A DNA stretch of 64,000 bases from Halocatena pleomorpha (GTDB lineage: Archaea; Halobacteriota; Halobacteria; Halobacteriales; Haloarculaceae), in NCBI RefSeq assembly GCF_003862495.1, contig NZ_RRCH01000003.1, positions 248,001 to 312,000 of the forward strand. The letters run 5' to 3'. Below the pieces are notes generated by a model that saw only the letters and a list, made by a program, of their open reading frames with translations, was not told the DNA's origin and did no database searches. The position numbers and the translations under genes are program-made. Shown here piece by piece: positions 4,492 through 22,103 of this stretch; within the stretch, counting starts at the first letter, position 1; every line of letters starts with the position of its first letter.

Positions 4492-5729
4492 AACTGCAGT
4501 CCATCTCTAATGGGCGGGTGTACGCGTCCCGTGGGCGCACCGTCTTCAGTGGGCCGCCCGGCCGACTCGAACCGCTCAGCCGTCTTCCGAACCCGCTTGC
4601 CGGTGTTTCTGGGCTTCGGTACGCAGTGACGACGACACCACCGTGGCGATCAGTGGTCGAGTGGGCTGTCGGTGCCTACCAGACGACGAACGTCTGGCCT
4701 ATCACCGAGTCGGTGCTGGTGGCGACCGTTCGGAGACAGCTGTTCGCCTCTCACGACGGCGGTCGAACGTGGCTCCACACGCATCGACTGCCACCGTCCT
4801 CGGGTGTAGCTGGCGTCCTGCCGACAGCAGTGTGCGCCCACCGTGGGGCGATCTACCTCGGAGAATATCCGCTCGACGACGACGCCACGCCGCGGATCCT
4901 GCGCTCGGTTGATGCGGGACGAACGTGGTCACCGGTGCTCGAACTGCCCGACGTACGCCACATTCATACGATCTGCTCCGATCCGTACACAGGTGAGCTG
5001 TGGGTGACGACCGGCGACAGGGATCCTGAGTGTTACATCGGGCGGCTCCGGGAGGGACAACTCGAACCCGTCGGCGGTGGAAGCCAGCGGTGGCGTGCCG
5101 TCGCGCTCGTGTTCACTCCCTCAGCGGTCCTCTGGGGGATGGACTGTGTGTACTCCGATCGAAACCCCATCTTCCGGCTCGACAGGGCAGACATCAACGA
5201 AGAATCAACGCGGCCGACACCGGGCGTGGATTCTCGATCACCGACCGCGGAACGGTCACCGAGCAACTGCGGCGGACACCCGGCGCTTGACACCAGCCCG
5301 TCTCTGACATCGGTCGGCGTCGTTCCGAATTCGGTGTACTTCGGGACAACGCTGACAGTCGATGACACGCCGTGGGTTGTCTTCTCGACGGCTGCCGAAA
5401 CCGGGGGCGACAGCACTGCCCCCAACCGTGATCACACCGACGAGGCGCGAACGAAGTCCGAACACAAGACGGCGACAGTCATCGCCGCCTCAGCAAGAAC
5501 GGAGTACACAGATTGGTACGAACTAGCGCGATTCAGAACGCCGACACGACTGATCAAACGCGTCGATCCGGGTGGATGGGTCCCGACTGCGAACACGTAC
5601 GTCTTTCTCGGGGCGGACGCCGATCATGGACTGATCATCAATCCGTTCAACACCGCAACCGATCACGGTCGACTCATCACTGTCTCCCCGGAAACGATCG
5701 CGCGGGTGGCTGAGAGTCAATCCAGATAA
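4488..5729 (+). CDS. BNR/Asp-box beta-propeller protein (sialidase-like fold)
   Basis: A 413-residue protein with two clear Asp-box repeats, SHDGGRTW (88-95) and SVDAGRTW (140-147), and several degenerate blade-like repeats after them. This matches a BNR propeller of the kind found in sialidases and photosystem assembly factors. There is no signal peptide, so it is predicted cytoplasmic, which argues against a secreted glycosidase. Translation starts inside the stop of the upstream membrane protein (ATGA), indicating tight coupling, and the gene ends 13 bases inside the convergent sulfatase-fold gene. A scaffold or carbohydrate-binding role for the partner membrane protein is my inference; catalysis is not supported. 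Confidence 0.7.
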   Translation: MKLQSISNGRVYASRGRTVFSGPPGRLEPLSRLPNPLAGVSGLRYAVTTTPPWRSVVEWAVGAYQTTNVWPITESVLVATVRRQLFASHDGGRTWLHTHRLPPSSGVAGVLPTAVCAHRGAIYLGEYPLDDDATPRILRSVDAGRTWSPVLELPDVRHIHTICSDPYTGELWVTTGDRDPECYIGRLREGQLEPVGGGSQRWRAVALVFTPSAVLWGMDCVYSDRNPIFRLDRADINEESTRPTPGVDSRSPTAERSPSNCGGHPALDTSPSLTSVGVVPNSVYFGTTLTVDDTPWVVFSTAAETGGDSTAPNRDHTDEARTKSEHKTATVIAASARTEYTDWYELARFRTPTRLIKRVDPGGWVPTANTYVFLGADADHGLIINPFNTATDHGRLITVSPETIARVAESQSR

Positions 5730-7192
5730 CCGAGATCTTCTAGCTGTGCTTCGATGCTCCCACTCAGTTGTCCCGTGTTCGCCCCAGAATCAGCAGCCAC
5801 CGTCATGTCGAACTGCTCCGTTCGTTCTGTAAGCAGCGATCGGAACCGATCGAGAACCGATGACTCCGGTTCGACAATGGCTTCCTCGATTCCCGTGCCT
5901 CGGAGGAGATACTCCTGTCTCCGTTCGCGGGGTTCGACTCGATCCGCATCGATCTCCGAGTCGTGGTGTGGCTGGTGTCCGTTCCTGTCGTGTGCAGACT
6001 GCGATCTGGCGGTGGGATCTTGCGTCGGTACAGAGGTTACGTACTTGTGGGTGCCATCGGACAGCATGCGCCAGTGGGTTATCTCTTCGGGGTCGATGTC
6101 TCGGCCGGTGTGGGGCACCACGTCCTCGATCAGAGCCGTTGAGGGCGTGGCTGGCAACGATCGGTCGAGCGTCCCGTCGAGAACGGTCTCGAAGAGTCGA
6201 TGGAGTTCAAACGGTCGCTCGACGCTCTCAGGTGCGGTTTGTCCCGGCTCCTTGATGAACAACGGCACCATCGTGTTCACGTCTCGGACGTAGTGGGGCG
6301 GCGTCGCGTCCCGGTCGTACTCTCCGAGCGTCTTGCCGTGATCGGCACAGACGACAAGCAACGCGTCGTCGTACCCTCCGTGCTGTTCGAGGGTAGCGAG
6401 CAGCCGATCGACCATCCGATCGAGATAGCGCAGGCTGGCGTCGTAATATTCGAGGAGTCGTTCACGCGTCTCCCAGTCGATACTGGCGCGGCCCATGATG
6501 TTTGTGAGCAGTTTGACGTTGAGCCGACGGGCTTCGATCGCTGACGGGCGGTCGAGACCGAGCGCGTCGAACGCGTCTCGTGGCGGGTAATACGGGCTGT
6601 GAGCTTCCATCAGGTTGAGGAAGGTGAACGTGGGGGCCTCGCTGTCAGCGGTATGTGAGAGCCACTCGGTGGCACGAGAGACGAGCCGCTCGGTGAAAAA
6701 CCGCCGCTTGAGCAGGACCAGCGGCTGTCGGCTCGCGTGACCGAGTGCGGTGTGGAGCTTGGAATAGAGCCGTCCTCGTCGGCTATGGATCGGAGTAGCC
6801 GAGCGGCTGATCTCAAGATCCCACTCGACGAATTCCTCGAATCCACGATCCAACCCCGAAAGCTGCCCAACCCACGGATTGTTGGAGAATCCAGCGGTGT
6901 GATAGCCCCGCTCTGTGAGTCGCTCAGCGAGCGTTGGAACGCTTGAGGGGATCCCGAACCCCTGACGGGTGAATCCACTCGTAACACCGTGTTCGGACGG
7001 ATGCAGCCCCGTGAACATCGAACAGTGTGAGGGGAGCGTCCACGGTGCTGGAACGTACGCGTGCTCGAACACAGTCGCTTCGTCGGCCAGCGTATCGAGT
7101 GTCGGCGTCGTCGGCCGGTCGTGGCCGTAGGCCGAGACACGGTCTCGCCGCGCCGAGTCGAGCACGAGGAACAGAACGTCAGGATCGGGCAT
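5717..7192 (-). CDS. Sulfatase-fold hydrolase/transferase with a Thr nucleophile position
   Basis: A 491-residue protein. Metal ligands of the alkaline phosphatase superfamily are seen at the N-terminus (FLVLDSARRD, Asp12) and at CADHGK (DHG 284-286). The nucleophile box reads TLPSH (52-56), where true sulfatases have C/S-x-P-S-R, so Thr52 takes the place of the formylglycine precursor. Thr is the usual nucleophile in phosphoglycerol and phosphoethanolamine transferases and in nucleotide pyrophosphatases of the same fold. A transferase or phosphodiesterase activity is therefore as likely as sulfate-ester cleavage. The C-terminus LEDLGYLD matches the tails of its island relatives. It is soluble and predicted cytoplasmic. 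Confidence 0.88.
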   Translation of the reverse strand: MPDPDVLFLVLDSARRDRVSAYGHDRPTTPTLDTLADEATVFEHAYVPAPWTLPSHCSMFTGLHPSEHGVTSGFTRQGFGIPSSVPTLAERLTERGYHTAGFSNNPWVGQLSGLDRGFEEFVEWDLEISRSATPIHSRRGRLYSKLHTALGHASRQPLVLLKRRFFTERLVSRATEWLSHTADSEAPTFTFLNLMEAHSPYYPPRDAFDALGLDRPSAIEARRLNVKLLTNIMGRASIDWETRERLLEYYDASLRYLDRMVDRLLATLEQHGGYDDALLVVCADHGKTLGEYDRDATPPHYVRDVNTMVPLFIKEPGQTAPESVERPFELHRLFETVLDGTLDRSLPATPSTALIEDVVPHTGRDIDPEEITHWRMLSDGTHKYVTSVPTQDPTARSQSAHDRNGHQPHHDSEIDADRVEPRERRQEYLLRGTGIEEAIVEPESSVLDRFRSLLTERTEQFDMTVAADSGANTGQLSGSIEAQLEDLGYLD

Positions 7193-7264: not shown

Positions 7265-8332
7265 TCACGCCGGTAGTTCGGCGTAGATCTCTCGGAGCGT
7301 CTGCTGTGTCGTGTCCCACGAATACGTCTCGGTGACGAGCTGGCGGTTCGTCCGTCCCATCGCCTCGGTTCGCTCCGGGTCTGCCACGAGCGTGGCGAGC
7401 GCGTCCGACAACTGGGTCGTGTTTTTCGGTTCGATCAACAGTCCGTTTTCCTCATCGATGACTTCTGGAATGCTCCCGACGGTGGTCGAAATGACGGCGT
7501 TACCGCCGGCCATCCCCTCTAGCAGCGCGATCGGCAACCCCTCGGCGTACGCCGGGAGCACGAATATCGTGCCCGAATCGAGAAGCGTCCGTTTTTTGCG
7601 CTCGGAAACGTAGCCGAGATACTCGACGGCGTCGTGCTGGTCGGCAAGCGATTCGACGCGGTCTTTGAGCGGCCCGCTCCCTGCGATGCTGAACCGAATG
7701 TCAGTCCCGTTTTGCTTCGTGTCCCGTTCGAGGAAGTCCTCGATGGCTCCGGTCAACTCGTACACCCCTTTCCGCTCAACCAGATTCGAGACGAACACCA
7801 CGTGTTGGGTGTCAGTCTCGAAGTCGGGCGAATACTCCGATGGAGCGATCGCGTTCGGGAGCACACGGATCTTTTCCGCAGGAACACGCGTAGATAACAC
7901 TTCCTCCCAGTATGGAGACAGCACGATGATGCGATCACACTTCCCGAACACGAGCGTTTGTATTCGATTAACGAGCCACGAGTCCGTCGTTACGAACGAA
8001 TCGAAGGAGGAACCGTGGACGTGTAATACGACCGGTCGGTCCCAAACGATCGACGCGTACAGAACGTAAAACGCCGATCGGTAGAACGAAAACCGGTGTG
8101 AGGTGTGGACGTGAACCGCGTCCGGCGGTGTCCGAAACGGGAACCGAACTGCGGCCCACACTGACGCTACTACCGAGGTGAATAGCCACCATTTCCCCTC
8201 TCCTTTCGGATCCGACACCATGTCGTACACTGACGCCTCGACGGAGTCGAGATGGCGATACTGTTGCTCGATGTACTGGTGGATACCACCACCACCGAGT
8301 GTCCCGATGATGAGTAATCGATCCGGGGTCAT
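7265..8332 (-). CDS. Glycosyltransferase family 4
   Basis: A 355-residue GT-B fold retaining glycosyltransferase. The N-terminal glycine loop GTLGGGGIHQYI and the C-terminal nucleotide-sugar domain are both present, with VFVSNLVERKGVYEL and the E-x7-E motif AEGLPIALLEG followed by STTVGSIPEVI. I chose the ATG at 8332 (MTPDRLLIIG). Sixteen extra upstream codons are open but do not resemble the family. It lies 72 bases downstream of the start of the sulfatase-fold gene on the same strand and could be its co-transcribed partner upstream. Predicted to add a sugar to a lipid carrier or growing glycan on the cytoplasmic face; donor unknown. Confidence 0.9.
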   Translation of the reverse strand: MTPDRLLIIGTLGGGGIHQYIEQQYRHLDSVEASVYDMVSDPKGEGKWWLFTSVVASVWAAVRFPFRTPPDAVHVHTSHRFSFYRSAFYVLYASIVWDRPVVLHVHGSSFDSFVTTDSWLVNRIQTLVFGKCDRIIVLSPYWEEVLSTRVPAEKIRVLPNAIAPSEYSPDFETDTQHVVFVSNLVERKGVYELTGAIEDFLERDTKQNGTDIRFSIAGSGPLKDRVESLADQHDAVEYLGYVSERKKRTLLDSGTIFVLPAYAEGLPIALLEGMAGGNAVISTTVGSIPEVIDEENGLLIEPKNTTQLSDALATLVADPERTEAMGRTNRQLVTETYSWDTTQQTLREIYAELPA

Positions 8333-8582
8333 CACTGCGGATCGTAAGCGGACACCCCCTTTGTTATTCTGTTTCAACAACGCGAGCGATCACAGCAGAA
8401 CCCGCATAGCCATGTGCGATGATCAAATGGTATGTATCGGAACTAATGTGTCTGAACAACGTGAAACGAGAGGAGAGTTCCAAACCGTTTATGTGTGTGG
8501 TAGCAGTTACTACTCACTGTTGTCTCTCTTGGGAACGATCCCAGAAACGATTATGAGAGCAGAAACCAACACGGAGGCGACA

Positions 8583-9586: not shown

Positions 9587-10702
9587 TCAATCCCCTTGCT
9601 GTGAGAGTTTGGGCGTCCTCCGTTCGTGCGCGTGTGAGTATGGGTGGAGTTCATCAACAGCAGCGGTGTCCCCACTCGCTCGTGCGAGCGACGTGATTGC
9701 CGACGAGAGGTCAACCATATCCGCGACATACCGATCGCGCTTTCGTCGCCACTCGGTTTCGAGGTCGGGTCGGTCAAGCAACCGTTCAGCCGTTTTGAGA
9801 ACGGTGTCAAACGATCGGAGGTTGTACACGAGACCGTTCGACTCCAATTCGAGGAAGTTGCCCATATCGTCCGGACCGACGAACGAGTTCGACCGGATCG
9901 CGGGCGTTCCGAGTAGCGCTGCTTCTGTCACCATCGTCTGTGTATCCGCGACGAGTAACGACGCCTCAGCAAGCGCGTCGTGTAAGACGCCCGGATGGTC
10001 GTCGAACGGCCGGGCAGGCAGCGAGTCAAGCGAGAGGGTGCCCCCTTCATCGGAGACGAACACCGTCGCATGATCAGCGAGCCGTTCGATGAGCGTCCGG
10101 CGTTGTTCTTCGGAGAATCCCCCCTGCCCCACGTCGTGGTGGGAGCCGAACGCGTTGAATCGAATGAGAACGAATCGTTCGGTCGCTCCCAGACCGAGGC
10201 GCTTGCGAATGTTGGTAGACGGTTCGTACACCCCCGGATGGAGATACGCACTCTCTTTGAACCCCACAAACACGTAGTGGTTCGTTCCCAAATCCTTCCG
10301 GAACGCCTGTGGGGTCACGATGGTCCGGGCGAACGGCATCGACACGGCGTGATCTAGCCCGGTCGGTTCCGAATCGAGTATCAGTACAGTGGGGGTCCTC
10401 GTGAACGCGCCTGCGTGCGCTGCGTATGCGCCCATTCCGAAAATCACGTCGGGATCGAACGCGCGCGTGTGGGTCAGTATGCGGATGTAGTGTTGGGGGA
10501 GTTGTCCGAGCAACGACCACCGCGTCGTGTCACACGCGCCGTACACGGTGTGGTCGATGTCGTGCCAATCGAGCAGTGCAGTTGTACAGCCGTAATCACG
10601 CGCCATGACTGAAACTGCGTGTCCTTCCGCCCGGAGTCGGCGCACGACGTGCTTATACAGATGGACGTGCGCCGGCGTGTTCGTAAAGAAAACGTATCGC
10701 AT
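9587..10702 (-). CDS. DUF354 family protein (GT-B fold, predicted glycosyltransferase-like)
   Basis: A 371-residue protein that begins MRYVFFTNTPAHVHLYKHVV, the DUF354 N-terminal signature in which a His-containing loop follows the first strand. Later DUF354 landmarks include DPDVIFGMGAYAAHAG, VLILDSEPTG, VFVGFKESAYLHPG and the C-terminal VADTQTMVTEAALLGTPAIR. DUF354 resembles UDP-GlcNAc 2-epimerase and GT-B transferases, and its genes usually sit in archaeal surface-polysaccharide clusters, as here. The substrate is unknown. Single gene on the minus strand. Confidence 0.85.
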   Translation of the reverse strand: MRYVFFTNTPAHVHLYKHVVRRLRAEGHAVSVMARDYGCTTALLDWHDIDHTVYGACDTTRWSLLGQLPQHYIRILTHTRAFDPDVIFGMGAYAAHAGAFTRTPTVLILDSEPTGLDHAVSMPFARTIVTPQAFRKDLGTNHYVFVGFKESAYLHPGVYEPSTNIRKRLGLGATERFVLIRFNAFGSHHDVGQGGFSEEQRRTLIERLADHATVFVSDEGGTLSLDSLPARPFDDHPGVLHDALAEASLLVADTQTMVTEAALLGTPAIRSNSFVGPDDMGNFLELESNGLVYNLRSFDTVLKTAERLLDRPDLETEWRRKRDRYVADMVDLSSAITSLARASGDTAAVDELHPYSHAHERRTPKLSQQGD

Positions 10703-10817: not shown

Positions 10818-11432
10818 TCAACGATCGATGAACCCCGACAAGGGGTGGTGTTCTGTGGTCTTATATAGATGCATTATCGAGAGCACGACGAACCCTACCA
10901 GAACACCAGTGAACAACTGCGCCGATGAAATCCCGGCAAACAGCGTATTCGCCCCGAAGATCACTCCGCTTGCGCCGGTGAGCAGGAGATAGTAGTGTGC
11001 CCACGCGTCCGCGTCATCGCCATCGAGATTCAGATACGGTTCGAACTGCTGAAACGTCGGTCCCAAGGAGATAGTTCCTCGCGCCTTGTTGAACTCGACC
11101 GCCCCCGTGTCGTCCATCTTCGGGAGGTGACACTGGTACAGACCGACGTACACGCGCTTGCGCTCACGAGAGGTGAGCGCCGACTCCGTCGTATCGTTTT
11201 CGAGCGCAGCGATGTGTTCGGCAAGCGCACCGATCGTCACTGGATTGTCGCGTTCAACGAGGTACTGAAGGGTCCGGCGTCGGCGCTGATTTTTCAACAC
11301 CTCAAAGATCCGATCCGGACCGAGCGCCGGACCAACACCGTCGTCACTCCCGTCACCATCGACGCCGACATCCGTCGAACTGTCGTCTTCGACCGACTGA
11401 GACTGCGTATCGTTCGGCGTCTTGGTACTCAT
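10818..11432 (-). CDS. DUF7344-type winged-helix membrane protein (paralogue 1)
   Basis: A 204-residue protein: an acidic, low-complexity N-terminus (residues 1-35), a winged-helix region (about 38-130) and two hydrophobic segments near 148-190. The core reads RIFEVLKNQRRRRTLQYL and ERKRVYVGLYQCHLPKM, the signature of DUF7344 helix-turn-helix proteins. The second paralogue at 19777-20331 shares the ERKR-Y-LYQ-H-PK core and the same topology. The ATG at 11432 (MSTKTPND) is preferred over the ATG six codons upstream. The gene is divergent from a FemAB-like gene, a layout typical of a local regulator. A membrane-tethered DNA-binding role is inference. Confidence 0.82.
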   Translation of the reverse strand: MSTKTPNDTQSQSVEDDSSTDVGVDGDGSDDGVGPALGPDRIFEVLKNQRRRRTLQYLVERDNPVTIGALAEHIAALENDTTESALTSRERKRVYVGLYQCHLPKMDDTGAVEFNKARGTISLGPTFQQFEPYLNLDGDDADAWAHYYLLLTGASGVIFGANTLFAGISSAQLFTGVLVGFVVLSIMHLYKTTEHHPLSGFIDR

Positions 11433-11827
11433 CGATACCACCTGTCGCACACGCAGATGGCCGATAGCGGTACGACTCTCAAACTACACATTTTTGCTGA
11501 TCGCATGTCTCTCAATACCCGGTGCTCGTGTGCCCCGACACTGTGAGTAGTGGGCAGCTACCGCGGCGGAATATATTAGGTCGAGGACTTACTTGTAATT
11601 AATTGTCGGTTTAACTGGTTGTCGAGTTTGAATCGATAGAAAGCAATTATTTTCTCTAAAATCAATTCTGAATTTTCCCAGTAGCCCGTGAGGGTGCTAC
11701 CGAACATCCACCACGCGTACTGAAATCTCTCGGTAGAACACATCATTTATCGTGATGTCTGGTAAGAATATCCCGTAGATTAATAAAAAATGACAGGGTG
11801 CTGGGGATCGAACCGGCGCATAGTGAC
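11433..11827. other. AT-rich divergent intergenic region
   Basis: Nearly 400 bases between the DUF7344 gene and the divergent FemAB-like gene. The middle (about 11570-11680) is strongly AT-rich for this genome, with TTAATT runs. I see no convincing reading frame or RNA gene. An ATTAATAAAA stretch at about 11776-11787 could be the TATA element of the FemAB-like gene. Otherwise I see nothing assignable in it. Confidence 0.5.
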
Positions 11828-12841
11828 ATGGGAGTTGAGATCGAGCGTGTCAAGGAGACCGAAACGTGGAATCGACTCGTCGAGCGGTCCCCCCAGACGT
11901 GTCTCTTTCATCGGGATGAGGCGTTATCGATTCAGGCAGATCACACCGGGGCAGACGTTCATCGGTTAGTGGGGTACGTTGGGGAAGAGCCGATCGGGGT
12001 GTTTCCGTTGTTCGAACTGTCGCGGGGACCGGTCCGGTTACTGTTTTCACCACCGCCGGAGCTTCGGGTCACCTACTTGGGTCCCGCGTTGCTGAATGGG
12101 GGCGGACTGAAACAGCGGAAGCGAGAACGCCGTCAACACGAGTTCATCGAGGGGTGTTTCGAGTGGGCGAAATCGGCGTTCAATCCCCGATACGGGCATC
12201 TTCGAATTCACAGCTGTTATGAGGATATCCGTCCGTTCCTCTGGAACGATTGTGAGGTGACGCCGTCGTACACGTATCTCGTAGATCTCACGCAGGGGAC
12301 GGACGATCTATTGATGTCGTTCAGTCGGGACGCACGGAGCAACATTCGTGACGCAGCAGAAGCGTCGTACACGATCGAAGAAGGCGGTCGAACCGCGATC
12401 TACGATATCGTTGAACAGGTAGACCGACGGTACGCGCGTCAGGGCATAAGCTACCACGTCACGCCCGCCTTTGTGACGGAACTGGCGAACAGTCTTCCGG
12501 AGGGAGCAGTGCGCCCGTACACGCTTCGGATCGATGGCGAGTTCATTGGCGGACTGATCGCGCTTGATGACGGCGAAACCGTTTATCGGTGGCAGGGAGG
12601 CGTTCGATCCGATACGTCGACCGACGTGCCCGTCAACGACCTACTCGACTGGCACGTCATGACCGAAGCGATCGATCGAGACCGGTCTGCCTACGATCTC
12701 GTCGGCGCGGACAACCCCCGGATCAACCGGTATAAGGCGAAGTTCAATCCCGAACTCGTCCCGTTTTACAACGTCGAACACGGTTCGACGGTGACCACGA
12801 CGCTCGCACGCGCCTACCAGTGGGTACGGCGGTTAGCGTGA
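11828..12841 (+). CDS. FemAB-like GNAT-fold transferase (paralogue 1)
   Basis: A 337-residue protein of the FemAB-like GNAT family (acetyltransferase_6 type). Landmarks are a start-proximal strand with LFHRDEALSI, the middle motif FSRDARSNIRDA that precedes the second GNAT lobe, VYRWQGGV, and the C-terminal LVGADNPRINRYKAKFNP. Bacterial relatives attach amino acids to peptidoglycan or modify exopolysaccharide. Haloarchaea lack murein, so the acceptor here is probably a surface glycan or its lipid carrier. It shares 9 bases with the convergent toroid gene and is a clear paralogue of the gene at 14220-15239. ATG 11828 was chosen; a GTG at 11798 is possible. Confidence 0.82.
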   Translation: MGVEIERVKETETWNRLVERSPQTCLFHRDEALSIQADHTGADVHRLVGYVGEEPIGVFPLFELSRGPVRLLFSPPPELRVTYLGPALLNGGGLKQRKRERRQHEFIEGCFEWAKSAFNPRYGHLRIHSCYEDIRPFLWNDCEVTPSYTYLVDLTQGTDDLLMSFSRDARSNIRDAAEASYTIEEGGRTAIYDIVEQVDRRYARQGISYHVTPAFVTELANSLPEGAVRPYTLRIDGEFIGGLIALDDGETVYRWQGGVRSDTSTDVPVNDLLDWHVMTEAIDRDRSAYDLVGADNPRINRYKAKFNPELVPFYNVEHGSTVTTTLARAYQWVRRLA

Positions 12842-14137
12842 GGTTGGAACCGACGATCGGGGCTCGTGCAGCGCAGTGAGATACTCGGAGATGGCGTACG
12901 CCATCCACGCTTGACACCATCGCATGAGCGTGATTCGGGTGGTGTACAGCCGGTGTTTCCGGTAGTAAAATCGTCCGTTCCCGGCGTACAACTGATCGAG
13001 CGTCCACGCGAGGATGCGCCGGGCGAAGTCGAGATCACCGGCGTACGTGAATACGAGGATCCCCTGTGCGCTCGCGTGGATGTCCCGTGGATACGTTTTG
13101 TTTTCGTCCCAGTTCGGCGCGCCGGACGGATCGAACAGCGTCTCCCGGTAGAACGACAGTGCCCGGTCGATCGTTTCCTCGTACCGATCCGATCCGGTTA
13201 CCGCCCGATAGCGGAGCAGTGACTCGATAACGAACCCGTTGTGGTGGTTGTCCATCGAGAGATGCGACGACGATGACGGATCCCGGTACATCCACCCCCC
13301 GAGATCAGTTTGGAGACCGACGATGTGGTCGAAGATCTGTTGTGCTCGGCGGCGGTAAGACTCCTTCTCGAAGTACGCATACAGATCGATGAGCATCCGG
13401 GCACCGATCGCCCCTGCGTTGATGGTGTATATATCACTCGAATGATTCAAATGGTAGTTGATGACGGCCCCATCGTTAACGGTACGGTAGTCGAGATCTT
13501 CGACGATGAACTGTTCGGCCGTCTGTGCGATCGAGGGGTACATCGGATCGAGACCCCTGGCCGAGAGCAACGACTTGACGGCGTAGGACGTCGAGACGAT
13601 ATCCGGGTCGTTTGGTAGTCCCTTCCCGTCGATGTGTTGGATCTTATGGTTGTGTCCGCCACAGAAGCCGCTGTATCCGACGCTCCGGTTCGCAATGAGC
13701 CACTCATTGAGCTGGTACGCTTCCCGCTTATAGTCGACCTGCTCGGTCGTATCGGCTGCCTCGCCGTTTTTGACGACGGACTCCATGTCGATTCTATCGG
13801 TCGAGTTCCACTCGATCTCTCCGAGTAGTCGTGCCGTGTTCAGGTTCGCCATCGCAAACAGCGACGTTCCTTTGTAGTTTCGCCGTTGCTCGACGAGCAA
13901 CAACGGCCGGACATTAATCGGTGGTCGTTTGGCGAGTTCCTGCACGAAAATGTTGAGCCACCTGTTGTCCACCGGGAGCATCCGGAGGAGCCGGCTACTC
14001 ATCCCATCGCCGTAATCCCACCCCCGGTACTCTCGCTCGCGGGCATACGTCAGCGTCTCGCGCAGGACTTCGATGAGGTGTTGTTCGTCGTTCGTTGCGG
14101 ACGTTTCTGCGGTCTGAGTCGAGATGCGTTGTGTCAT
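12833..14137 (-). CDS. Alpha-toroid (six-hairpin-like) protein of glycan clusters
   Basis: A 434-residue soluble protein rich in paired helices. Regularly spaced segments (NLNTARLLGEIEW, ARMLIDLYAYFEKESYRRRA, ESLLRYRAVTGSDRYEE, FARRILAWTLDQLY) suggest an alpha/alpha-toroid fold like those of glycosidases, lyases and epimerases. HNHKIQHIDG and MDNHHNG are His-rich loops that could line an active site. I recall homologues carrying the label antibiotic ABC transporter permease; nothing supports that, since no membrane segments are present. It is the last gene of the six-gene glycan operon. A polysaccharide lyase, epimerase or hydrolase role is inference only. Confidence 0.72.
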   Translation of the reverse strand: MTQRISTQTAETSATNDEQHLIEVLRETLTYAREREYRGWDYGDGMSSRLLRMLPVDNRWLNIFVQELAKRPPINVRPLLLVEQRRNYKGTSLFAMANLNTARLLGEIEWNSTDRIDMESVVKNGEAADTTEQVDYKREAYQLNEWLIANRSVGYSGFCGGHNHKIQHIDGKGLPNDPDIVSTSYAVKSLLSARGLDPMYPSIAQTAEQFIVEDLDYRTVNDGAVINYHLNHSSDIYTINAGAIGARMLIDLYAYFEKESYRRRAQQIFDHIVGLQTDLGGWMYRDPSSSSHLSMDNHHNGFVIESLLRYRAVTGSDRYEETIDRALSFYRETLFDPSGAPNWDENKTYPRDIHASAQGILVFTYAGDLDFARRILAWTLDQLYAGNGRFYYRKHRLYTTRITLMRWCQAWMAYAISEYLTALHEPRSSVPTSR

Positions 14138-14219
14138 GTTATCATGCGTTCCGGTCGTATCTGAGAGCGCTGCGATTCGAGTCGTCGTGGTCGGCTGGTG
14201 GTTCTCGTGATCGTTTCGG

Positions 14220-15239
14220 CTATCGGCTAGCGAAGTTGTACGCTCCTTTGGCGAGTTTCATCTCTGGGCCGACTGATTCGACGACGTAGTACGGCACCAG
14301 ATCGCCGCTGAATTTCCCCTTGTACTCACAGAGCCGTTCCGTGTTCGCACCGACGAGATCGTAACGCGTCACCGATTCGAGCTGTGGCTCCGTGACGATG
14401 TCCTCGATGACCCGCTTGTGGAGGAGGCTGTTGACGCTCACGCCGTCGTACGTCGTCATGATCCCCCCAAGCCAGAAGTAGGCGGTGTCATCGGAGTAGA
14501 GAACGATGATACCGCTGCTGAACGATCCATCCGGCTCTCGCGCAACGTACACCCGGTGGTGTTCGGGCAGCGCTTCAAGGAGATCGCGTACGAATTCCCA
14601 CGCGATCGGCGGCTGCATCCCTTGCTCCTCGAAATGGGATCCGACTGAGTCCCAGATGCGTTTGGCTGCGCCCCGTCCCTCAATACCGACGGTGACATCG
14701 ATCTCTTCCCCGCGACGCATCTCGTTTCGGAGGCTCCGACTGAACGGATCCATCACCGTATCGTCGGTCACATCCGCAAGATCGAGGATGTAGGTGAACT
14801 CGGGCGTCACCTTGAGCTGATTCCACTGAAACGGCCGTGGATCGGCGTACGCCCGCGGACAGATCATACGGAACAACGTCAACCTCGCGTCGACGGAGAG
14901 ATCGTCGAGGATCTCCGCCGTGAAGCCGTAGTTGACCGTCTCTTTCTTCCTTTGTTTCGGACTGTTCGATAACAACAACGGTCCGAGCCGCGGGATTCCC
15001 ATCGACGGCGGCGGCGATGTCACGACGCGACCGACCGCCTTGTGATCGATGAACACTGGCAACAACGCCACCGGTTGATCGCCTTTGAAACCACCGTACA
15101 ACTGCAGTTCCCCCTCGGTGTGGTTGTCGACAGCTTCGAGTGCCGGGGCTGTGTGGAACACTTCAGTCCCCGAGTCGGGGAGCACGTCGTTCCATTCTTC
15201 GAGGGAGAGGCTGCGGGTTTCGATCGAGTTCGTGCTCAT
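14220..15239 (-). CDS. FemAB-like GNAT-fold transferase (paralogue 2)
   Basis: A 339-residue FemAB-like protein. It shares with its paralogue at 11828 the segments FSRSLRNEMRRG, ITPEF/VTPEFTYILDL, FWLGGIM and LVGANTERLCEYKGKFSGDLVPYY. The ATG at 15239 is preferred because GAGGG lies about seven bases upstream; the open frame continues further upstream without family similarity. It is the fifth gene of the operon, after the polysaccharide deacetylase. Having a deacetylase (exposing an amino group) next to two N-acyl or aminoacyl transferases suggests replacement of an N-acetyl group on the glycan, which is an inference. Confidence 0.83.
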   Translation of the reverse strand: MSTNSIETRSLSLEEWNDVLPDSGTEVFHTAPALEAVDNHTEGELQLYGGFKGDQPVALLPVFIDHKAVGRVVTSPPPSMGIPRLGPLLLSNSPKQRKKETVNYGFTAEILDDLSVDARLTLFRMICPRAYADPRPFQWNQLKVTPEFTYILDLADVTDDTVMDPFSRSLRNEMRRGEEIDVTVGIEGRGAAKRIWDSVGSHFEEQGMQPPIAWEFVRDLLEALPEHHRVYVAREPDGSFSSGIIVLYSDDTAYFWLGGIMTTYDGVSVNSLLHKRVIEDIVTEPQLESVTRYDLVGANTERLCEYKGKFSGDLVPYYVVESVGPEMKLAKGAYNFASR

Positions 15240-15350
15240 CGTTGTCCCTCTCGTGATTGTGGTCGGAGCGGACAGCTCCGTCTCTGCGTCGCTTCGTTCG
15301 TGGTTACGATCCATCGCGTAGCGTTCGTTTCGATCATAGCGTATCACTCA

Positions 15351-16292
15351 TCAGCTCCGTTCGGATAGTTTGCTGCTCGTTGTGGGGGTAGCTCGATTCA
15401 CGAGATGGGGATACAGTTCGCCGGGTGGACCGATCCATGCGTCCAACTCGCGTGCGCGTTCAATGAGAAACCGGTACAGATCGGCGTAGCCGGGGAACTC
15501 CTGATCGTTGAAATATCGAGGATGCCAGAGGACAGTCATGACCGCCCCATGGTCGCGAGCCTCGCTGAGCAGTCGTTCGCACACCGTTCGCGCGTGCTCG
15601 GCGTGCTCCCCGGGATCGGGGAGTGTGGTCTCCATCACTGTCAGGGGAAAGACGATGAACTCGTCGTCGAACGGTCGTTTGACTCCGTATCCGTTGGTGA
15701 ATCCGTACTCAGTACTCGATCCGAGACTAGCGTCGTACCGCAGTCCCATCTCGGCGTGATAGCGCCACGTCTCCGATCCGTCGAGATTAAGATAGTGTTG
15801 ACGGCCGCCGAGGATCGTCTCCCCGAGGATCGATTCGAGAACCGCCTTCTCGTAGGTGAGACGCAGCTTGTCGCTGTAGGACTGGTACGAGCCGTGCAGT
15901 CCGATCTCCCAGCCGTCGGCGTTGAGCGTCCGGATGATCGACGCGACCTCCGAATCCGTGATGTCGTACCGCCCCATCTGCTGGATCCAGTTGTCCGACT
16001 GTGTCCACGCCTGTACCGGCTTCTCGTGGAACAGATCCGGTTCGTTCAGGAAATAAAACGCCGACCGGACCCCTAAATCATTTTCGAGCGACATGATCGT
16101 CTCGAACTGCCAGTAGGGGTTCTCTTCCGGGAGCGTCGACGCCAAGTGCGACGGATCGGAATCGACCAACGCATAGTACAGCGCTTGGAACAACGACTTG
16201 TACGGTCGATCGACATCGTGAGTGAGACACAGCGCAAACGGGCTGTTACTGACACTAGTGTCATCGTCTACATCTGTTGTAAGATCATGCAT
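15351..16292 (-). CDS. Polysaccharide deacetylase family protein
   Basis: A 313-residue protein of the NodB-like deacetylase fold. The metal/catalytic Asp pair is LTHDVDR (about 23-29), the His motif is GLHGSYQSY (about 133-141), and the C-terminal WHPRYFND holds the usual late His. VRSAFYFL and RYDASLGSS are also typical. No signal peptide is visible, so it would act in the cytoplasm on a precursor, unlike secreted chitin deacetylases. It overlaps the epimerase gene upstream by 8 bases. It probably removes an acetyl group from an N-acetylhexosamine, possibly ManNAc made by the neighbouring epimerase; this step is inference. Confidence 0.88.
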   Translation of the reverse strand: MHDLTTDVDDDTSVSNSPFALCLTHDVDRPYKSLFQALYYALVDSDPSHLASTLPEENPYWQFETIMSLENDLGVRSAFYFLNEPDLFHEKPVQAWTQSDNWIQQMGRYDITDSEVASIIRTLNADGWEIGLHGSYQSYSDKLRLTYEKAVLESILGETILGGRQHYLNLDGSETWRYHAEMGLRYDASLGSSTEYGFTNGYGVKRPFDDEFIVFPLTVMETTLPDPGEHAEHARTVCERLLSEARDHGAVMTVLWHPRYFNDQEFPGYADLYRFLIERARELDAWIGPPGELYPHLVNRATPTTSSKLSERS

Positions 16293-17352
16293 CAGCGATC
16301 ACCTCAGCAACTCGTGGGGCGGCCTGCCCGTTTCCATACAACTGCGGTTTCGTTGCTGGCGTATCGATCCGGGCGAGTGCGCGACTGATCCGGGATCGGT
16401 CGGCACCGACGAGCGTGTTCCATCCACAGTCGATCGTCTGGACCCACTCGGTTTCGTCGCGCATCGTAACACACGGCGTGTCCAGATAAAACGCCTCGCG
16501 CTGGACACCGCCGGAATCGGTCGCAACCAGCGCAGCACCGTCGAGTAGGTGGACGAAATCGAGGTAACCGACCGGCTCGATGATCGTGAGCTGCTCGTTT
16601 GCGGTCTCGAACAGCCCGTACTCGTGGAGCGCTTGCTCCGTGCGCGGGTGGATCGGCACGACGACCGGAATGTCGACGCTCGCAAGTCCTTCAACGATCC
16701 CGGCGAGTCGATCACGGTCGTTTGTGTTCCCAGCTCGGTGAATCGTCGCAAGAACGTACTCCGTCGAGTCGATCCCGAGATCCGACCGAAGAGTCGATAG
16801 CTCGCTTGCCCGGTTACGGACGTACAACAACGCGTCGTACATCACATCGCCGGTCTCGTGCACCTCACCGCCAACGCCCTCAGCACGGAGCGTCTCCACC
16901 GCTCGTTCGGTCGGTGCGATCAACACATCAGCGAGGTGGTCTGTTGCGATCCGGTTGTGTTCTTCGGGCATCGCTCGGTTGCCGCTGCGCAGTCCGGCTT
17001 CGACGTGGACCAGCGAGGCTGATCGTTTTGCGGCGACGAGCGCGCCGGCCAACGTCGAATTGGTGTCTCCGTAAACGATCACCACGTCGGGGGACTCCGC
17101 AGCCATCACGCTGTCCAACTCGATCATCATGCGCCCGGTCTGGTCGGCGTGGCTCCCCGATCCGACGCCGAGGTTGTACGCGGGTTCAGGGATGTCCAAC
17201 TCTTCGAAGAACACGTCGGAGAGCATCGCGTCGTAGTGCTGACCGGTGTGAACGACGGTCTCCTGGTGTTCACCGTCAAGCGCTCGCGAAACCGGAAACG
17301 CCTTGATGAACTGCGGACGCGCACCGACGATTGACAGAACGCGCTTACTCAT
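16285..17352 (-). CDS. wecB: UDP-N-acetylglucosamine 2-epimerase (non-hydrolysing)
   Basis: A 355-residue enzyme that interconverts UDP-GlcNAc and UDP-ManNAc. Full-length family landmarks are VGARPQFIKAFPV, VHTGQHYD, VYGDTNSTLAG (Asp), HVEAGLRSG (Glu), MPEEHNR (Glu), the THR-like TIHRAGN (His) and ATDSGGVQREAF near the C-terminus. All catalytic acids and the His that I can align are present. It overlaps the GT2 gene upstream by 8 bases and the deacetylase downstream by 8 bases, consistent with translational coupling. It supplies ManNAc-type donors for the island's glycan. Confidence 0.93.
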   Translation of the reverse strand: MSKRVLSIVGARPQFIKAFPVSRALDGEHQETVVHTGQHYDAMLSDVFFEELDIPEPAYNLGVGSGSHADQTGRMMIELDSVMAAESPDVVIVYGDTNSTLAGALVAAKRSASLVHVEAGLRSGNRAMPEEHNRIATDHLADVLIAPTERAVETLRAEGVGGEVHETGDVMYDALLYVRNRASELSTLRSDLGIDSTEYVLATIHRAGNTNDRDRLAGIVEGLASVDIPVVVPIHPRTEQALHEYGLFETANEQLTIIEPVGYLDFVHLLDGAALVATDSGGVQREAFYLDTPCVTMRDETEWVQTIDCGWNTLVGADRSRISRALARIDTPATKPQLYGNGQAAPRVAEVIADA

Positions 17353-18328
17353 TGTCCTCGATGGATATCGTCTCGTCGTTCGCGTAGCGCTCTTCGACCA
17401 TCGTAAACACGACTAACAGTCCGCTGAGCACCGTGCCGAGCAGAGTGAGCCACGGCGGCGTCCGCTCTCGTGTGCGCAACCGAGCAGTGATCACGAGACC
17501 AGCGAACAGACTCGCAGACTCTGACATCGACGGAGAGAGCAGCCAGTTCCGCCGTAGTTCGGTTCGCAACCGCCAGAAAAACCGGCCCAACAGGAGCCAC
17601 GACAGTCGAGGAATGAACGCGGTGTAATGGATACCGCTCTCCTCCTCGCCGTACACCGCCGGCATTGTGACATCCGCAATGGTCGCCCCCTCAACACTCA
17701 GTCGAATGAGCACGTCGTTTCGAAAGCCATAGCGGTCGTGGAGCTGCGACAGCGGAATCCGTTCCAGTGTCGCCGTGTCGATGGCGTTGTAACCGTTCTG
17801 CGGGTCGCGCATGCGCCAGTAGCCGCTTGCGATCCGGGTGAGGATCGTCAACAGGACGTTGCCAAACAGCCGGAACCACGACATCGATTCTATATGTGAC
17901 CGCTTCGCCAGCCGGTTCCCCTTCGCGTAGCTGGCGCGTCCGTCGACGATTGGATCGAGCAGCCGATCGAGGTGAGCGGGATCCATCTGTCCATCGCCGT
18001 CCATCACGGCGACGATATCCACGCCGCTGTCCAACGCCTCTTGAAAGCCAGATTTGATCGCACCCCCGACACCACGGTTCTGCTCGTGGCGAACGGGAAC
18101 GACACGGCGTTGGGAGCGATGACCGCCGTCGGGCAGCGGAAACGAGGACGTCTCCGCCGGTGCCATTGCCATATGCTCGGTGATCTCCGCCCACGTGTTG
18201 TCGGTCGAACAGTCGTCTACAGCGTACACTTCGTCGACAAAGGAGGGGACACTGTCGATGACATCACCGACCAGTCCCTCCTCGTTGTAAGCGGTGATCA
18301 CGACGCCGACGGTGTGGTCTCGGTACAT
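17345..18328 (-). CDS. Glycosyltransferase family 2 (polyprenyl-phosphate sugar transferase type)
   Basis: A 327-residue GT-A enzyme. The nucleotide-binding start GVVITAYNEEGLVGDVI, YAVDDCSTDNTW, EQNRGVGGAIKSGF and the DxD-like MDGDGQMDP are all present. RMRDPQNGYNAI is typical of dolichol-phosphate-mannose synthase-like enzymes. The C-terminus carries one or two hydrophobic segments (around 270-315) that would anchor it. The next gene upstream ends one base before its start. It probably transfers a sugar to polyprenyl phosphate for use outside the cell; donor sugar not determinable. Confidence 0.9.
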   Translation of the reverse strand: MYRDHTVGVVITAYNEEGLVGDVIDSVPSFVDEVYAVDDCSTDNTWAEITEHMAMAPAETSSFPLPDGGHRSQRRVVPVRHEQNRGVGGAIKSGFQEALDSGVDIVAVMDGDGQMDPAHLDRLLDPIVDGRASYAKGNRLAKRSHIESMSWFRLFGNVLLTILTRIASGYWRMRDPQNGYNAIDTATLERIPLSQLHDRYGFRNDVLIRLSVEGATIADVTMPAVYGEEESGIHYTAFIPRLSWLLLGRFFWRLRTELRRNWLLSPSMSESASLFAGLVITARLRTRERTPPWLTLLGTVLSGLLVVFTMVEERYANDETISIEDNE

Positions 18329-18329
18329 C

Positions 18330-19355
18330 TCACATCCCTCCAGTGAAATCGGAACCGCTCGTATCGATCGGTCGTCGAGTCACAGCATCGCTGGCCGCCC
18401 CTGCAGCGGGATCAGTCGCAAGCGAGTCGATCTGACGGACGACTTCCACCGCCCGCAGCCCATCGACGCCCGTGACGGCCGGTTCGGACCGGTCGTTTAC
18501 CGAGTCGAGAAACGACGACAGCTCCGCTTTGAGCGGCTCACCGTTCTCGACGGTCGGCCGTTCAGTGATGCTTTCGTGGCGGTAGCGAACGCCATTGGCG
18601 GACTGAACGTACTCCGGTAGCGAGTGGCGGTGGATTCGAATCGACTGTTCGATGTAGTCGACGATCACGAGACAGTCTCTCGCCGTGATCCAACACTCCC
18701 GCACCTTCTGTTGGGTGAGCCGACTCGCCGTCACGGTACCGACGATTCCATCATCAAACTGCAGCGTCGTGGTGACGTGGCGGTTGTCGTGACACCCAAC
18801 GGCGCTGATTGACAGGGGATCACTTCCGAGCAACGCGAGTAGAACGTCGATGTCGTGAATCATCAGATCGTACGCCACGCTCTTATCGAGGTCCCGGTCG
18901 ACTGGGGGACCGAGCCGGCGCGCGTCGACCGCTATCACGTCGAGATCCGCAAGGATGTCCATGAGCGTCTGGATCGCGGGATTGAACCGTTCGATGTGCC
19001 CGATCTGCAAAACTACGTCCTGCTCACGAGCGCGTTCAATGAGGTCTCGTCCGACCGCCGGTTCACGGACAAACGGCTTTTCGATGAGCACATCGACCCC
19101 TGCGTCGATCGCTTCACGTGCGACCTCGGCGTGGGCGTGTGTCGGAACAGCGATCGAAACCGCCTCGGCCCGGTCGAACACGCTTGAGCGATCAAGAACG
19201 CGGGTGCTGTACTCCGTTGCGACCGACTGCGCACACGTATCGTCTTCGTCAACGACACCAACGAGATCGGCACGCGGCAACTCTGAATAAGCGCGTGCGT
19301 GGTGACTTCCCATCGTACCGACGCCGATTACCCCAACTGAAATCTGCTCAGACAT
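18330..19355 (-). CDS. Gfo/Idh/MocA-family oxidoreductase of sugar nucleotides
   Basis: A 341-residue NAD(P)-dependent oxidoreductase. The Rossmann motif is VGVIGVGTMGSHHARAY, the catalytic Lys motif is VLIEKPFVREP, and DLMIHDIDVLLALLG follows in the C-terminal domain. The ATG at 19355 (MSEQISVG) is preferred over a start eight codons upstream. It is the first gene of the six-gene operon. With a 2-epimerase two genes on, a UDP-HexNAc or UDP-HexNAcA 3-dehydrogenase (WlbA-like) is the most plausible role, but the substrate is not proven by the sequence. Confidence 0.87.
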   Translation of the reverse strand: MSEQISVGVIGVGTMGSHHARAYSELPRADLVGVVDEDDTCAQSVATEYSTRVLDRSSVFDRAEAVSIAVPTHAHAEVAREAIDAGVDVLIEKPFVREPAVGRDLIERAREQDVVLQIGHIERFNPAIQTLMDILADLDVIAVDARRLGPPVDRDLDKSVAYDLMIHDIDVLLALLGSDPLSISAVGCHDNRHVTTTLQFDDGIVGTVTASRLTQQKVRECWITARDCLVIVDYIEQSIRIHRHSLPEYVQSANGVRYRHESITERPTVENGEPLKAELSSFLDSVNDRSEPAVTGVDGLRAVEVVRQIDSLATDPAAGAASDAVTRRPIDTSGSDFTGGM

Positions 19356-19776
19356 GGTTTGCTTTAGAGCGGGTGTCATGGGAATCTGTTATCGCGCCAA
19401 CTGCCTGCGAAACAGGAGATACTGTACAGCCCGGCCACACTCTGCTCGGACTCGGGACGGAACCCAGTCCCAGTACCTGTGTGCAGGTTCGAAGTAGCGC
19501 CATACGACAGAGGCGACACCAGTTCATTGCTTTGTTATTCTCAGATTTCATCGAGTAATAACGAATTTCTGAAAATGGTTTCAGGCAATGACGTTCCTGC
19601 GTTCTCCCCCCGATTAACGATCGAACGCGGCTCTTACTCGGCTGTAGACGGGATCTCGATCGTGATCTGAGAGACAGTAACACCGGGTTACGAGTCGTAG
19701 GACGAGTGTAACAAAGGCCGTAACCGGTGAACGTCTCGACTCGGTGGCGACGACCACAAGCCCGACGGATAATGAC
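19356..19776. other. Divergent intergenic region between glycan operon and DUF7344 gene
   Basis: About 420 bases holding the promoters of the minus-strand glycan operon and of the plus-strand DUF7344 gene. I found no convincing gene in it. The segment near 19520-19580 is AT-rich and includes TTTGTTATTC and GAGTAATAACG stretches that could be core promoter elements. No clear long inverted repeat was seen. Confidence 0.5.
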
Positions 19777-20331
19777 ATGTCAAAAGACCAAGATGAAGAG
19801 GATTCAGAGCCGTTATCACAGGATCTCGTTTTCGATCTCCTGAGTAGCCCTCGACGTCGGTTCGTACTGCATTATCTTCGGTCTGAATCGGATTCGCTCG
19901 CGTTGACAGCACTCGCTGACGAAGTAGCCGCGTGGGAGTACGAAACTCCCGTTGAGGAACTGAGCGACCAGGAACGCAAACGGGCGTACGTGTCTTTGTA
20001 TCAGACCCACATCCCGAAGTTGGCTGACGCCGGCATCGTGGAGTACGACACGGACAGTGGCGAGGTCACTCTCGCACAGGCAGCCGGTGTTGTCGACGCG
20101 TATCTCCCAGACGAAGCGGGTCCGGAGATACCGTGGGAGTTCGTGTATCCGTTGTTGACGATCGTCTGCGTCGTGCTTTTCGTGATCGGGCTAATTGACA
20201 TCGGTCCGTTTTCAGCGACGGTAGCGGGGGTGCTCATTCTCCTTCTGTTCGGCATTACATCGTTCGTCCATCTCCTGTGGGTGAGACACGACAACCAACA
20301 GCTGCCGATCGATGTGACTGAGAATGAGTGA
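19777..20331 (+). CDS. DUF7344-type winged-helix membrane protein (paralogue 2)
   Basis: A 184-residue protein. The winged helix (about 15-105) reads LVFDLLSSPRRRFVLHYL and QERKRAYVSLYQTHIPKL, and two hydrophobic segments follow (about 120-165), ending in a short charged tail. Topology and core match paralogue 1 at 10818. The ATG at 19777 (MSKDQDEED) is preferred over the GTG eleven codons upstream. It is divergent from the glycan operon, as paralogue 1 is divergent from the FemAB-like gene. A regulatory role is inferred from fold and placement. Confidence 0.83.
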   Translation: MSKDQDEEDSEPLSQDLVFDLLSSPRRRFVLHYLRSESDSLALTALADEVAAWEYETPVEELSDQERKRAYVSLYQTHIPKLADAGIVEYDTDSGEVTLAQAAGVVDAYLPDEAGPEIPWEFVYPLLTIVCVVLFVIGLIDIGPFSATVAGVLILLLFGITSFVHLLWVRHDNQQLPIDVTENE

Positions 20332-20498: not shown

Positions 20499-22103
20499 AT
20501 GTCCGAGTCGAGTAATGAAACGAGGGGTCTGCAGACGTTGTTAATCGGCATCGACGCGGGAGCTCGATCGATACTCGAACCACAGTTCGATCGACACCAA
20601 CTGCCGAACTTACAACGGCTGTTCGAGGGGGCCAGCGGCGCGCTCGAATCGCAGATTCCGCCGTGGACCGCGAGCGCGTGGCCCTCCCTGTACACAGGGA
20701 TGAATCCGGGGAAGCACGGCGTGTTCGATTTTCTCGACTTCGAGGGGTATGAGTGGAGCGTCGTCAACGCAACGCACGTTCGTCGACGCTCGTTGTGGGA
20801 GTATCTCGATAAACACGGCTACCGAAGCGTCGTCGTCAACGTCCCCGTTACGCATCCACCTCGACCGTTTGATGGCGCACTGGTCCCCGGTTACACCGCT
20901 CCCGAATCGCCCGAATGTCATCCTCCGGGACTGTTTTCGGAGATGGTGGACGCGATCGGTGAGTACAAGGTGTACGGGACGGTCGAATCAGCGACCGACT
21001 GCGTCCGAATGCGAGGCGACGCGTTCCGGTATCTCGTCGATCGCTTCGAACCGGATTTCGGGTTCGTACAATTTCAATGGACTGACGCCATCTGTCACAA
21101 GCGGCCGGGCGACTGGACTGAATTAGAACGGGTGTACGGCGCGGTCGACCGGCAGATCGGAGAGATCATCGATGTCTGTTCGCCTCGAAACGTCATCGTT
21201 GTGAGCGATCACGGGATGGGTCCGTACAACGGACGGACGTTTCTGGTCAACGAATATCTCGACCAACAGGGGTACGTCCAAACCACCAACGGCGGCATCG
21301 GGATGCCGTCGTGGTCCGCCGTTCGTGACCGACAACTCAAGCGAGGCGTCAGCGCCACACGATACGATACGAGCTTCATTGAGCGACTGACGGCAGTGGC
21401 GGCGCGGTTCGGAATGACGAGCCAGCGCATCGAATCGCTCCTCTCGGTGTTGGGTCTCAAGCAGTTCGTGCTCCGGCACGTCCCGACGACGGCGATCAGT
21501 ACCGCGGCTCAGCAGGTCGATTTCCCCCGGTCACGGGCGTACATGCGATCCCGGACCGAGCTAGGCGTTCGGATCAATCTTGAGGGACGCGAGCCGGAAG
21601 GGATCGTTCCCCAAGGAGAGTACGAATCGATCCGGTCCGATCTCATCGACCGCTTGCAAGCGGTCGAAACGCCGGCCGGCAACCCAGTGTTCGAATCGGT
21701 CGTGCGCCGCGAACAGCAGTTCAGCGGCCCGTTCTCTGATCAAGCACCGGATATCGTGACGATACCAACGGATTTCGATCAGTTCCTCTCAACCCAAATC
21801 GGCACGCAGCAGTTCAGCGAGCCGAACGAGCCGTGGAATCACAAACGCGAGGGAGTCATCGCCGCCCTCGGTGAGTCGATTGACGAGGCAACACCACTCA
21901 CAGACGCACATCTGTTCGATATCGCGCCGACTGTGCTCGCTACGTTCGATGTGCCAGCAGACGTCGCCATGGACGGGCGGGTGCTCCCGATCGTCGATTC
22001 GGTCGGTGAGCAGGAGTATTCACCGTTCGAACTCGAATATCGGCGTGTGACTACCGATGAATCGATCGAAGACCGGCTTGCGGACCTCGGATACATCGAG
22101 TGA
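20499..22103 (+). CDS. Alkaline phosphatase family (type I phosphodiesterase-like) protein
   Basis: A 534-residue cytoplasmic protein of the phosphodiesterase/nucleotide-pyrophosphatase branch. LIGIDAG (Asp19) is the first metal motif. Thr57 in PPWTASAW is the nucleophile position, followed by SLYTGMNPGKHGVFDF. VVSDHGMGP is the second metal site and WNHKREGV holds a late His. The C-terminus LADLGYIE repeats the LGY(L/I)(D/E) tail of the other superfamily proteins in the island. Such proteins are frequent in haloarchaeal glycan clusters. The physiological substrate is unknown; a lipid-phosphate or nucleotide-sugar ester is plausible. Confidence 0.88.
   Translation: MSESSNETRGLQTLLIGIDAGARSILEPQFDRHQLPNLQRLFEGASGALESQIPPWTASAWPSLYTGMNPGKHGVFDFLDFEGYEWSVVNATHVRRRSLWEYLDKHGYRSVVVNVPVTHPPRPFDGALVPGYTAPESPECHPPGLFSEMVDAIGEYKVYGTVESATDCVRMRGDAFRYLVDRFEPDFGFVQFQWTDAICHKRPGDWTELERVYGAVDRQIGEIIDVCSPRNVIVVSDHGMGPYNGRTFLVNEYLDQQGYVQTTNGGIGMPSWSAVRDRQLKRGVSATRYDTSFIERLTAVAARFGMTSQRIESLLSVLGLKQFVLRHVPTTAISTAAQQVDFPRSRAYMRSRTELGVRINLEGREPEGIVPQGEYESIRSDLIDRLQAVETPAGNPVFESVVRREQQFSGPFSDQAPDIVTIPTDFDQFLSTQIGTQQFSEPNEPWNHKREGVIAALGESIDEATPLTDAHLFDIAPTVLATFDVPADVAMDGRVLPIVDSVGEQEYSPFELEYRRVTTDESIEDRLADLGYIE

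Follow-up and report, generated by a model that had tools for sequence, protein, structure and literature searches.

Gene content of the locus

A group of seven genes with a probable role in surface-glycan synthesis was analysed in a 64,000-nucleotide stretch of the 3.65 Mb genome of the haloarchaeon Halocatena pleomorpha, which corresponds to positions 248001-312000 of contig C23 and is referred to as the window. The group extends from the ATG of a FemAB-like gene, at position 11828, to the ATG of a Gfo/Idh gene, at position 19355. Six genes lie on the minus strand, in the order Gfo/Idh (18330..19355), GT2 (17345..18328), WecB (16285..17352), deacetylase (15351..16292), FemAB-B (14220..15239) and toroid (12833..14137), while the second FemAB paralogue, FemAB-A (11828..12841), is located on the plus strand. 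An earlier note on this DNA had described a six-gene minus-strand operon facing a second FemAB, with junctions of 1-8 bases over the first four genes. All seven open reading frames are present and their coordinates fit; the measured junctions are +1 bp (Gfo/Idh to GT2), -8 (GT2 to WecB) and -8 (WecB to deacetylase). If FemAB-B starts at an upstream GTG (15347), which is possible, its distance from the deacetylase gene is +3; with the ATG at 15239, favoured by the lengths of the homologues, it is about 111 bp. FemAB-B and toroid genes are separated by +82, and toroid and FemAB-A are convergent, with an overlap of 9 bp. The same gene order is found in a second genome placed in the same genus (G183, locus L057).

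The deacetylase is VimE-like: it matches the NCBIfam model NF053580 (VimE) with an E value of 1.1e-16 and 60 bits, against a cut-off of 440, and had no Pfam match in the profile search. VimE is also the only NCBIfam match for all ten members of the family that were aligned. The aligned proteins are 52-73% identical to the window protein, and an HDVD motif (H25, D26, D28), H133, H166 and H257 are invariant in all ten. A sequence search with the deacetylase against the PDB returned nothing useful; distant relatives are present in other classes of the phylum.

Both FemAB proteins match PF13480 above the cut-off, with 62 bits for FemAB-B and 76 bits for FemAB-A, which also matches PF02388 (27 bits); they share about 35% identity. 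The AlphaFold model of FemAB-B (predicted local distance difference test score, pLDDT, 90.2) has the tandem-GNAT FemX fold. Comparison of the model with PDB structures by Foldseek placed at the top the aminoacyl-tRNA-dependent peptide synthases Sba18 and Sbb17, whose structures were solved with streptothrisamine, followed by FemX (E values of 2.5e-13 for Sba18 and 3e-12 for FemX; template modelling (TM) scores of 0.65-0.69 by query length). Tandem acyl-CoA GNATs are also found in the list, with lower scores.

The first three genes of the operon were assigned by profile matches. The Gfo/Idh/MocA oxidoreductase (PF01408, 84 bits) is WbpB/GnnA-like and a probable UDP-sugar C3 dehydrogenase, its best NCBIfam match being NF040723, UDP-GlcNAc 3-dehydrogenase (220 bits, below the 450-bit cut-off). 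The GT2 glycosyltransferase (PF00535, 76 bits) has a region resembling AglJ (TIGR04182, 65 bits, below cut-off) and a hydrophobic C-terminus, and may be a polyprenyl-phosphate sugar transferase. The third protein is a WecB/WbpI-like non-hydrolysing UDP-sugar 2-epimerase, which matches TIGR00236 with 292 bits, above the 210-bit cut-off.

The last protein of the operon is predicted to fold as an alpha/alpha toroid (AlphaFold pLDDT 80) and is possibly a sugar epimerase or hydrolase. Its Foldseek matches, sugar 2-epimerases, GH76 and GH88 at TM scores of about 0.5, confirm the fold class of the model and give no function. The profile search gave no Pfam match, the sequence search against the PDB nothing useful, and no signal peptide was evident by eye. 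A role as C5-epimerase, leading to gulosaminuronic acid, was considered because in some loci toroid genes adjoin WecB/WbpA genes of the N-acetylmannosaminuronic acid (ManNAcA) type; it was discarded, as no C5-epimerase is found among the 50 best-listed Foldseek matches. A LanM-like match of 17.6 bits, against a cut-off of 304, was judged to reflect generic toroid similarity. Large right-handed beta-helix proteins, possible polysaccharide lyases or C5-epimerases, are encoded near the cluster in some loci (L040:2159-4846, also L042 and L055).

Conservation and companion genes in Halobacteria

Conservation was evaluated in one sample of 194 Halobacteria genomes, with no correction for relatedness. 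Strong matches to the deacetylase were found in 97 genomes and FemAB-B in 82, 80 of which also contain the deacetylase (Fisher p about 1e-34, without phylogenetic correction). The two genes lie within 20 kb of each other in 78 genomes and within 5 kb in 49, supporting the view that they form one conserved module. The toroid family is present in 57-61 of the 194 genomes. Of the 57 with strong matches, 50 contain the deacetylase, within 15 kb in 43 cases, and the seven which do not contain it mark the toroid as a looser partner. In a survey of 80 named deacetylase loci, some of which are shortened by contig ends, the companions were a DUF354 glycosyltransferase (62 loci), FemAB-B (59), WecB (44) and the toroid (40). 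FemAB-A orthologues are linked to the cluster in Haloferax, Halococcus and Halostella. The clustering is not due to chance, since the same genes are grouped across families of Halobacteria.

In Haloferax, Halostella, Halococcus, Halorussus, Haladaptatus and other genera, the cluster includes three additional genes, coding for a WbpD-like hexapeptide acetyltransferase, a WbpE-like DegT aminotransferase and a WbpA-like nucleotide-sugar dehydrogenase. In Haloferax, Halococcus, Haladaptatus and Halostella the order is WbpD-WbpE-Gfo-WbpA-(GT2)-WecB-deacetylase, usually followed by a FemAB; on plasmid pHME505 of Haloferax mediterranei the set is annotated from E6P09_RS16740 to RS16700, with RS16715 coding for the deacetylase, RS16710 for the toroid, and RS16705 and RS16700 for FemABs. 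These companion genes, absent from the earlier description, make the set Wbp/Vim-like. An asparagine synthase-related gene lies about 6 kb from the cluster on the same plasmid (L165:926-2788); bacterial WbpS is an amidotransferase of the asparagine synthase-related type.

In the genome under study, contiguous homologues of WbpE, Gfo, WbpD and WbpA are found on another contig (C14, 117762-121950). The C14 proteins are 58% (WbpA), 66% (WbpD) and 55% (WbpE) identical to cluster proteins of Haloferax mucosum, and the Gfo paralogue is 48% identical to the Gfo/Idh protein of the window. By sequence, the genome appears to contain the Wbp set of dehydrogenase, C3 dehydrogenase, aminotransferase and N-acetyltransferase. 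Within the larger region C14:114476-121956 (L151:4476-11956), the WbpE-Gfo-WbpD-WbpA genes precede another dehydrogenase gene, a DUF354 gene and a GT4 gene. The region is flanked by DUF7344, DUF1616 and YdjM genes, as is the window operon, and because of these similar flanks the two loci may be parts of a single cluster, split or duplicated.

Proposed pathway and haloarchaeal polymers

In the bacterial Wbp/Vim pathway, VimE, a putative deacetylase, is proposed to take the 2-N-acetyl group off a diacetamido uronic acid, and VimA to install serine or glycine instead, yielding a 2-N-seryl or 2-N-glycyl, 3-N-acetyl uronic sugar (PMC7468200). On the observed gene set, synteny and homologies, and on the predicted folds, the operon probably encodes the second half of an archaeal equivalent of this pathway, making an N-aminoacyl amino sugar; its catalytic steps, donor, step order and final polymer are proposals based on sequence, models and analogy. 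A UDP-2,3-diacetamido uronic acid would be made by the genome starting with C6 oxidation by the WbpA-like dehydrogenase, followed by C3 oxidation and amination by the Gfo/Idh protein and the DegT aminotransferase, and by 3-N-acetylation by the WbpD-like hexapeptide enzyme. WecB would invert C2 to the manno form and the VimE-like deacetylase would remove one of the N-acetyl groups. FemAB-B, as a putative aminoacyl transferase, would then attach an amino acid, donated by aminoacyl-tRNA, to the exposed amine, and FemAB-A would probably perform the same reaction at another position or with another amino acid. The sugar would finally be built into a lipid-linked cell-surface glycan by GT2 and neighbouring glycosyltransferases. 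The sequence of deacetylation and aminoacylation of a hexosamine, already put forward in the earlier note, is the best reading of a conserved FemAB-B/deacetylase module in which the predicted FemAB-B fold is nearest to aminoacyl-tRNA-dependent transferases.

Two polymers of known composition may be compared with the cluster; both links are correlations. In the exopolysaccharide (EPS) of Haloferax denitrificans ATCC 35960, three out of four residues are 2,3-diacetamido-glucuronic acid (GlcA2,3NAc) (PMC3191746, PMC5852497). This strain carries the cluster (L096), and its EPS contains the product expected of WbpA/B/E/D. The WbpD copy number was tried as a tie between this EPS and the cluster and failed, as two copies are present in all four Haloferax genomes tested; for this reason the polymer cannot be tied to the cluster, and the WbpD encoded elsewhere could account for it. 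The wall of Halococcus morrhuae contains glycine and gulosaminuronic acid, and N-glycyl-glucosaminyl bridges provide part of the linkage between its carbohydrate domains (PMC4187196). Like the proposed product, this surface polymer bears an amino acid on the amine of a hexosamine, and the cluster and a linked FemAB are present: strain DSM 1307 carries WbpD, WbpE, Gfo, WbpA, GT2, WecB and deacetylase genes with a FemAB nearby. Two PF13480 genes are found in H. morrhuae, one in the cluster and the other beside a DUF354 gene, and in H. thailandensis the toroid gene lies near a FemAB.

Several observations weigh against the proposed pathway. WecB is the sole protein passing an equivalog cut-off, the VimE, NF040723 and TIGR03019 matches falling below theirs. 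Many loci in Natrialbaceae hold the deacetylase and FemAB-B without adjacent WbpA/D/E genes, and the substrate there could therefore be another sugar. The H. denitrificans EPS sugar retains both N-acetyl groups, with no amino acid reported, and the Halococcus bridges sit on glucosamine rather than on a 2,3-diamino uronic acid. The published EPS of Haloferax gibbonsii ATCC 33959, a strain with the full cluster, contains neutral sugars only; the EPS of H. mediterranei is composed of N-acetylglucosaminuronic acid (GlcNAcA) and mannose, without diacetamido sugars; and a second WbpD is located elsewhere in each of the four Haloferax genomes tested. Because of the two EPS compositions and the second WbpD copies, the product of the cluster is less likely to be the bulk EPS than a sugar that is minor or serves as a linker, or a component of the wall.

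In the literature searched, no genes are assigned to the wall glycine of Halococcus or to the GlcA2,3NAc of H. denitrificans, and no publication links haloarchaea to Wbp/Vim genes. A conserved and genetically tractable cluster can now be named as a candidate for both constituents, a question open since the 1970s; it may account for the glycine bridges described decades earlier in the wall of Halococcus. If the proposed pathway holds, aminoacyl-sugar chemistry, to which genes have so far been assigned only in bacteria, would be widespread in archaea. A broader idea would attribute the amino-acid bridges in surface polymers of haloarchaea, the N-glycyl-glucosaminyl ones of Halococcus among them, to genes of this cluster family; it is advanced tentatively, and we regard it as rather unlikely. 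Were it true, archaea would possess a tRNA-dependent cross-linking chemistry analogous to the Fem-type bridges of bacterial murein, and amino-acid-capped sugars would be widespread on archaeal surfaces.

Alternative readings and comparison with known systems

The FemAB proteins might be ordinary GNAT acyl-CoA transferases, which re-acylate the deacetylated amine with an acetyl or other acyl group, with no amino acid involved. The acyl-CoA tandem GNATs in the Foldseek list of FemAB-B and the naming of PF13480 for acetyltransferases are in favour of this possibility. The best structural matches of FemAB-B are nevertheless aminoacyl-tRNA-dependent enzymes and FemX, and removing an acetyl group only to restore it would be futile, which makes re-acylation an unlikely role.

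The locus had been likened in the earlier note to bacterial exosortase-type exopolysaccharide loci; accordingly, FemAB, deacetylase and WecB would serve a PEP-CTERM-like or archaeosortase-linked polymer. XrtA/PEP-CTERM loci share with the window the grouping of a FemAB relative, a deacetylase and glycosyltransferases, and the two FemAB proteins are distantly homologous to TIGR03019. The matches to this model are, however, very weak (24 and 21 bits for the two proteins, 20.9 being the value of FemAB-B, against a cut-off of 260), and the deacetylase belongs to another family: TIGR03006, the XrtA deacetylase model, found no match at E 0.001 among the ten family members, all of which match VimE. 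An XrtA-like pair is present elsewhere in the same genome, on contig C4, with a deacetylase matching TIGR03006 (216 bits, cut-off 276) and a FemAB matching TIGR03019 (141 bits, below the cut-off of 260). The exosortase analogy was consequently abandoned as the main frame. In the C4 region (C4:25384-32599, L156:5384-12599) there are also an ATP-grasp gene, a GT2 of the dolichyl-phosphate type and another FemAB, which shares 42% identity with FemAB-B.

Nor is a sortase linked to the operon, the only archaeosortase-domain gene of the genome being located on contig C3. The earlier note had proposed to score co-occurrence with ArtA; this is uninformative, because the archaeosortase domain (TIGR04178) is found in all 194 genomes, with or without the cluster. 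In about 25 Natrialbaceae loci, genes for PGF-CTERM-like surface proteins lie directly beside the deacetylase (e.g. L048:12397-13728), which may be counted in favour of an archaeosortase-linked polymer. The nucleophile of haloarchaeal ArtA is believed to be a lipid-borne amine (PMC7157517), so that a role of the aminoacyl sugar in protein anchoring is conceivable at most. On balance, an exosortase-type locus is improbable.

The genes surrounding the operon bear on the type of glycan. A DUF354 glycosyltransferase-like gene (9587..10702, minus strand; PF04007, 33 bits) is a recurrent neighbour of the cluster, and a GT4 glycosyltransferase gene (7265..8380, minus; PF00534, 100 bits) is a neighbour in Halocatena and Haloferax. 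The latter adjoins a sulfatase-family gene (5717..7192, minus), which suggests sulfated or phosphorylated surface glycans, and a Wzx-like flippase gene is found at the left end of the window. On the other side, a type I phosphodiesterase/nucleotide pyrophosphatase-like gene (20499..22103, plus; PF01663, 118 bits) recurs in other loci; its Halococcus homologue is 52% identical and adjoins FemAB-A. Two DUF7344 genes, one divergent from the operon (19744..20331, plus; PF24035, 106 bits) and one at 10818..11450 (minus), bracket the locus on opposite strands; such genes, possible regulators, recur beside the cluster in other genera. Decoration of a conventional N-glycan of the AglB type, in which the diamino sugar and the amino acid would be minor modifications and no separate polymer would be made, is improbable. 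In its favour, the GT2 resembles AglJ, and diacetamido uronic acids and threonine occur in the N-glycans of methanogens; but the annotated window showed no oligosaccharyltransferase, and the recurrent DUF354 and GT4 glycosyltransferases, Wzx-like flippase and sulfatase resemble polysaccharide genes.

The proposed aminoacyl transfer finds its structural parallel in FemX/FemABX and in the streptothricin-type enzymes Sba18 and Sbb17, which FemAB-B resembles in its predicted fold. Identity to these proteins is 10-15%, and their known acceptors are the murein precursor or streptothrisamine; to our knowledge, haloarchaea have no murein.

As a whole, the gene set is most similar to the Wbp/Vim linking-sugar pathway of Porphyromonas gingivalis and Tannerella forsythia. 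The haloarchaeal cluster differs from it in being archaeal, in scores below the equivalog cut-offs, in the absence of a type IX secretion system, and in the presence of an additional toroid and often of two FemABs; in the genome under study, moreover, WbpA/D/E are located on another contig. FemAB-B is likened to VimA solely by the FemAB fold and by adjacency to a VimE-like gene. The components shared by the two systems are a nucleotide-sugar dehydrogenase, a Gfo/Idh protein, a DegT aminotransferase, a hexapeptide acetyltransferase and a 2-epimerase, with a VimE-like deacetylase and a FemAB-fold transferase as candidate counterparts of VimE and VimA.

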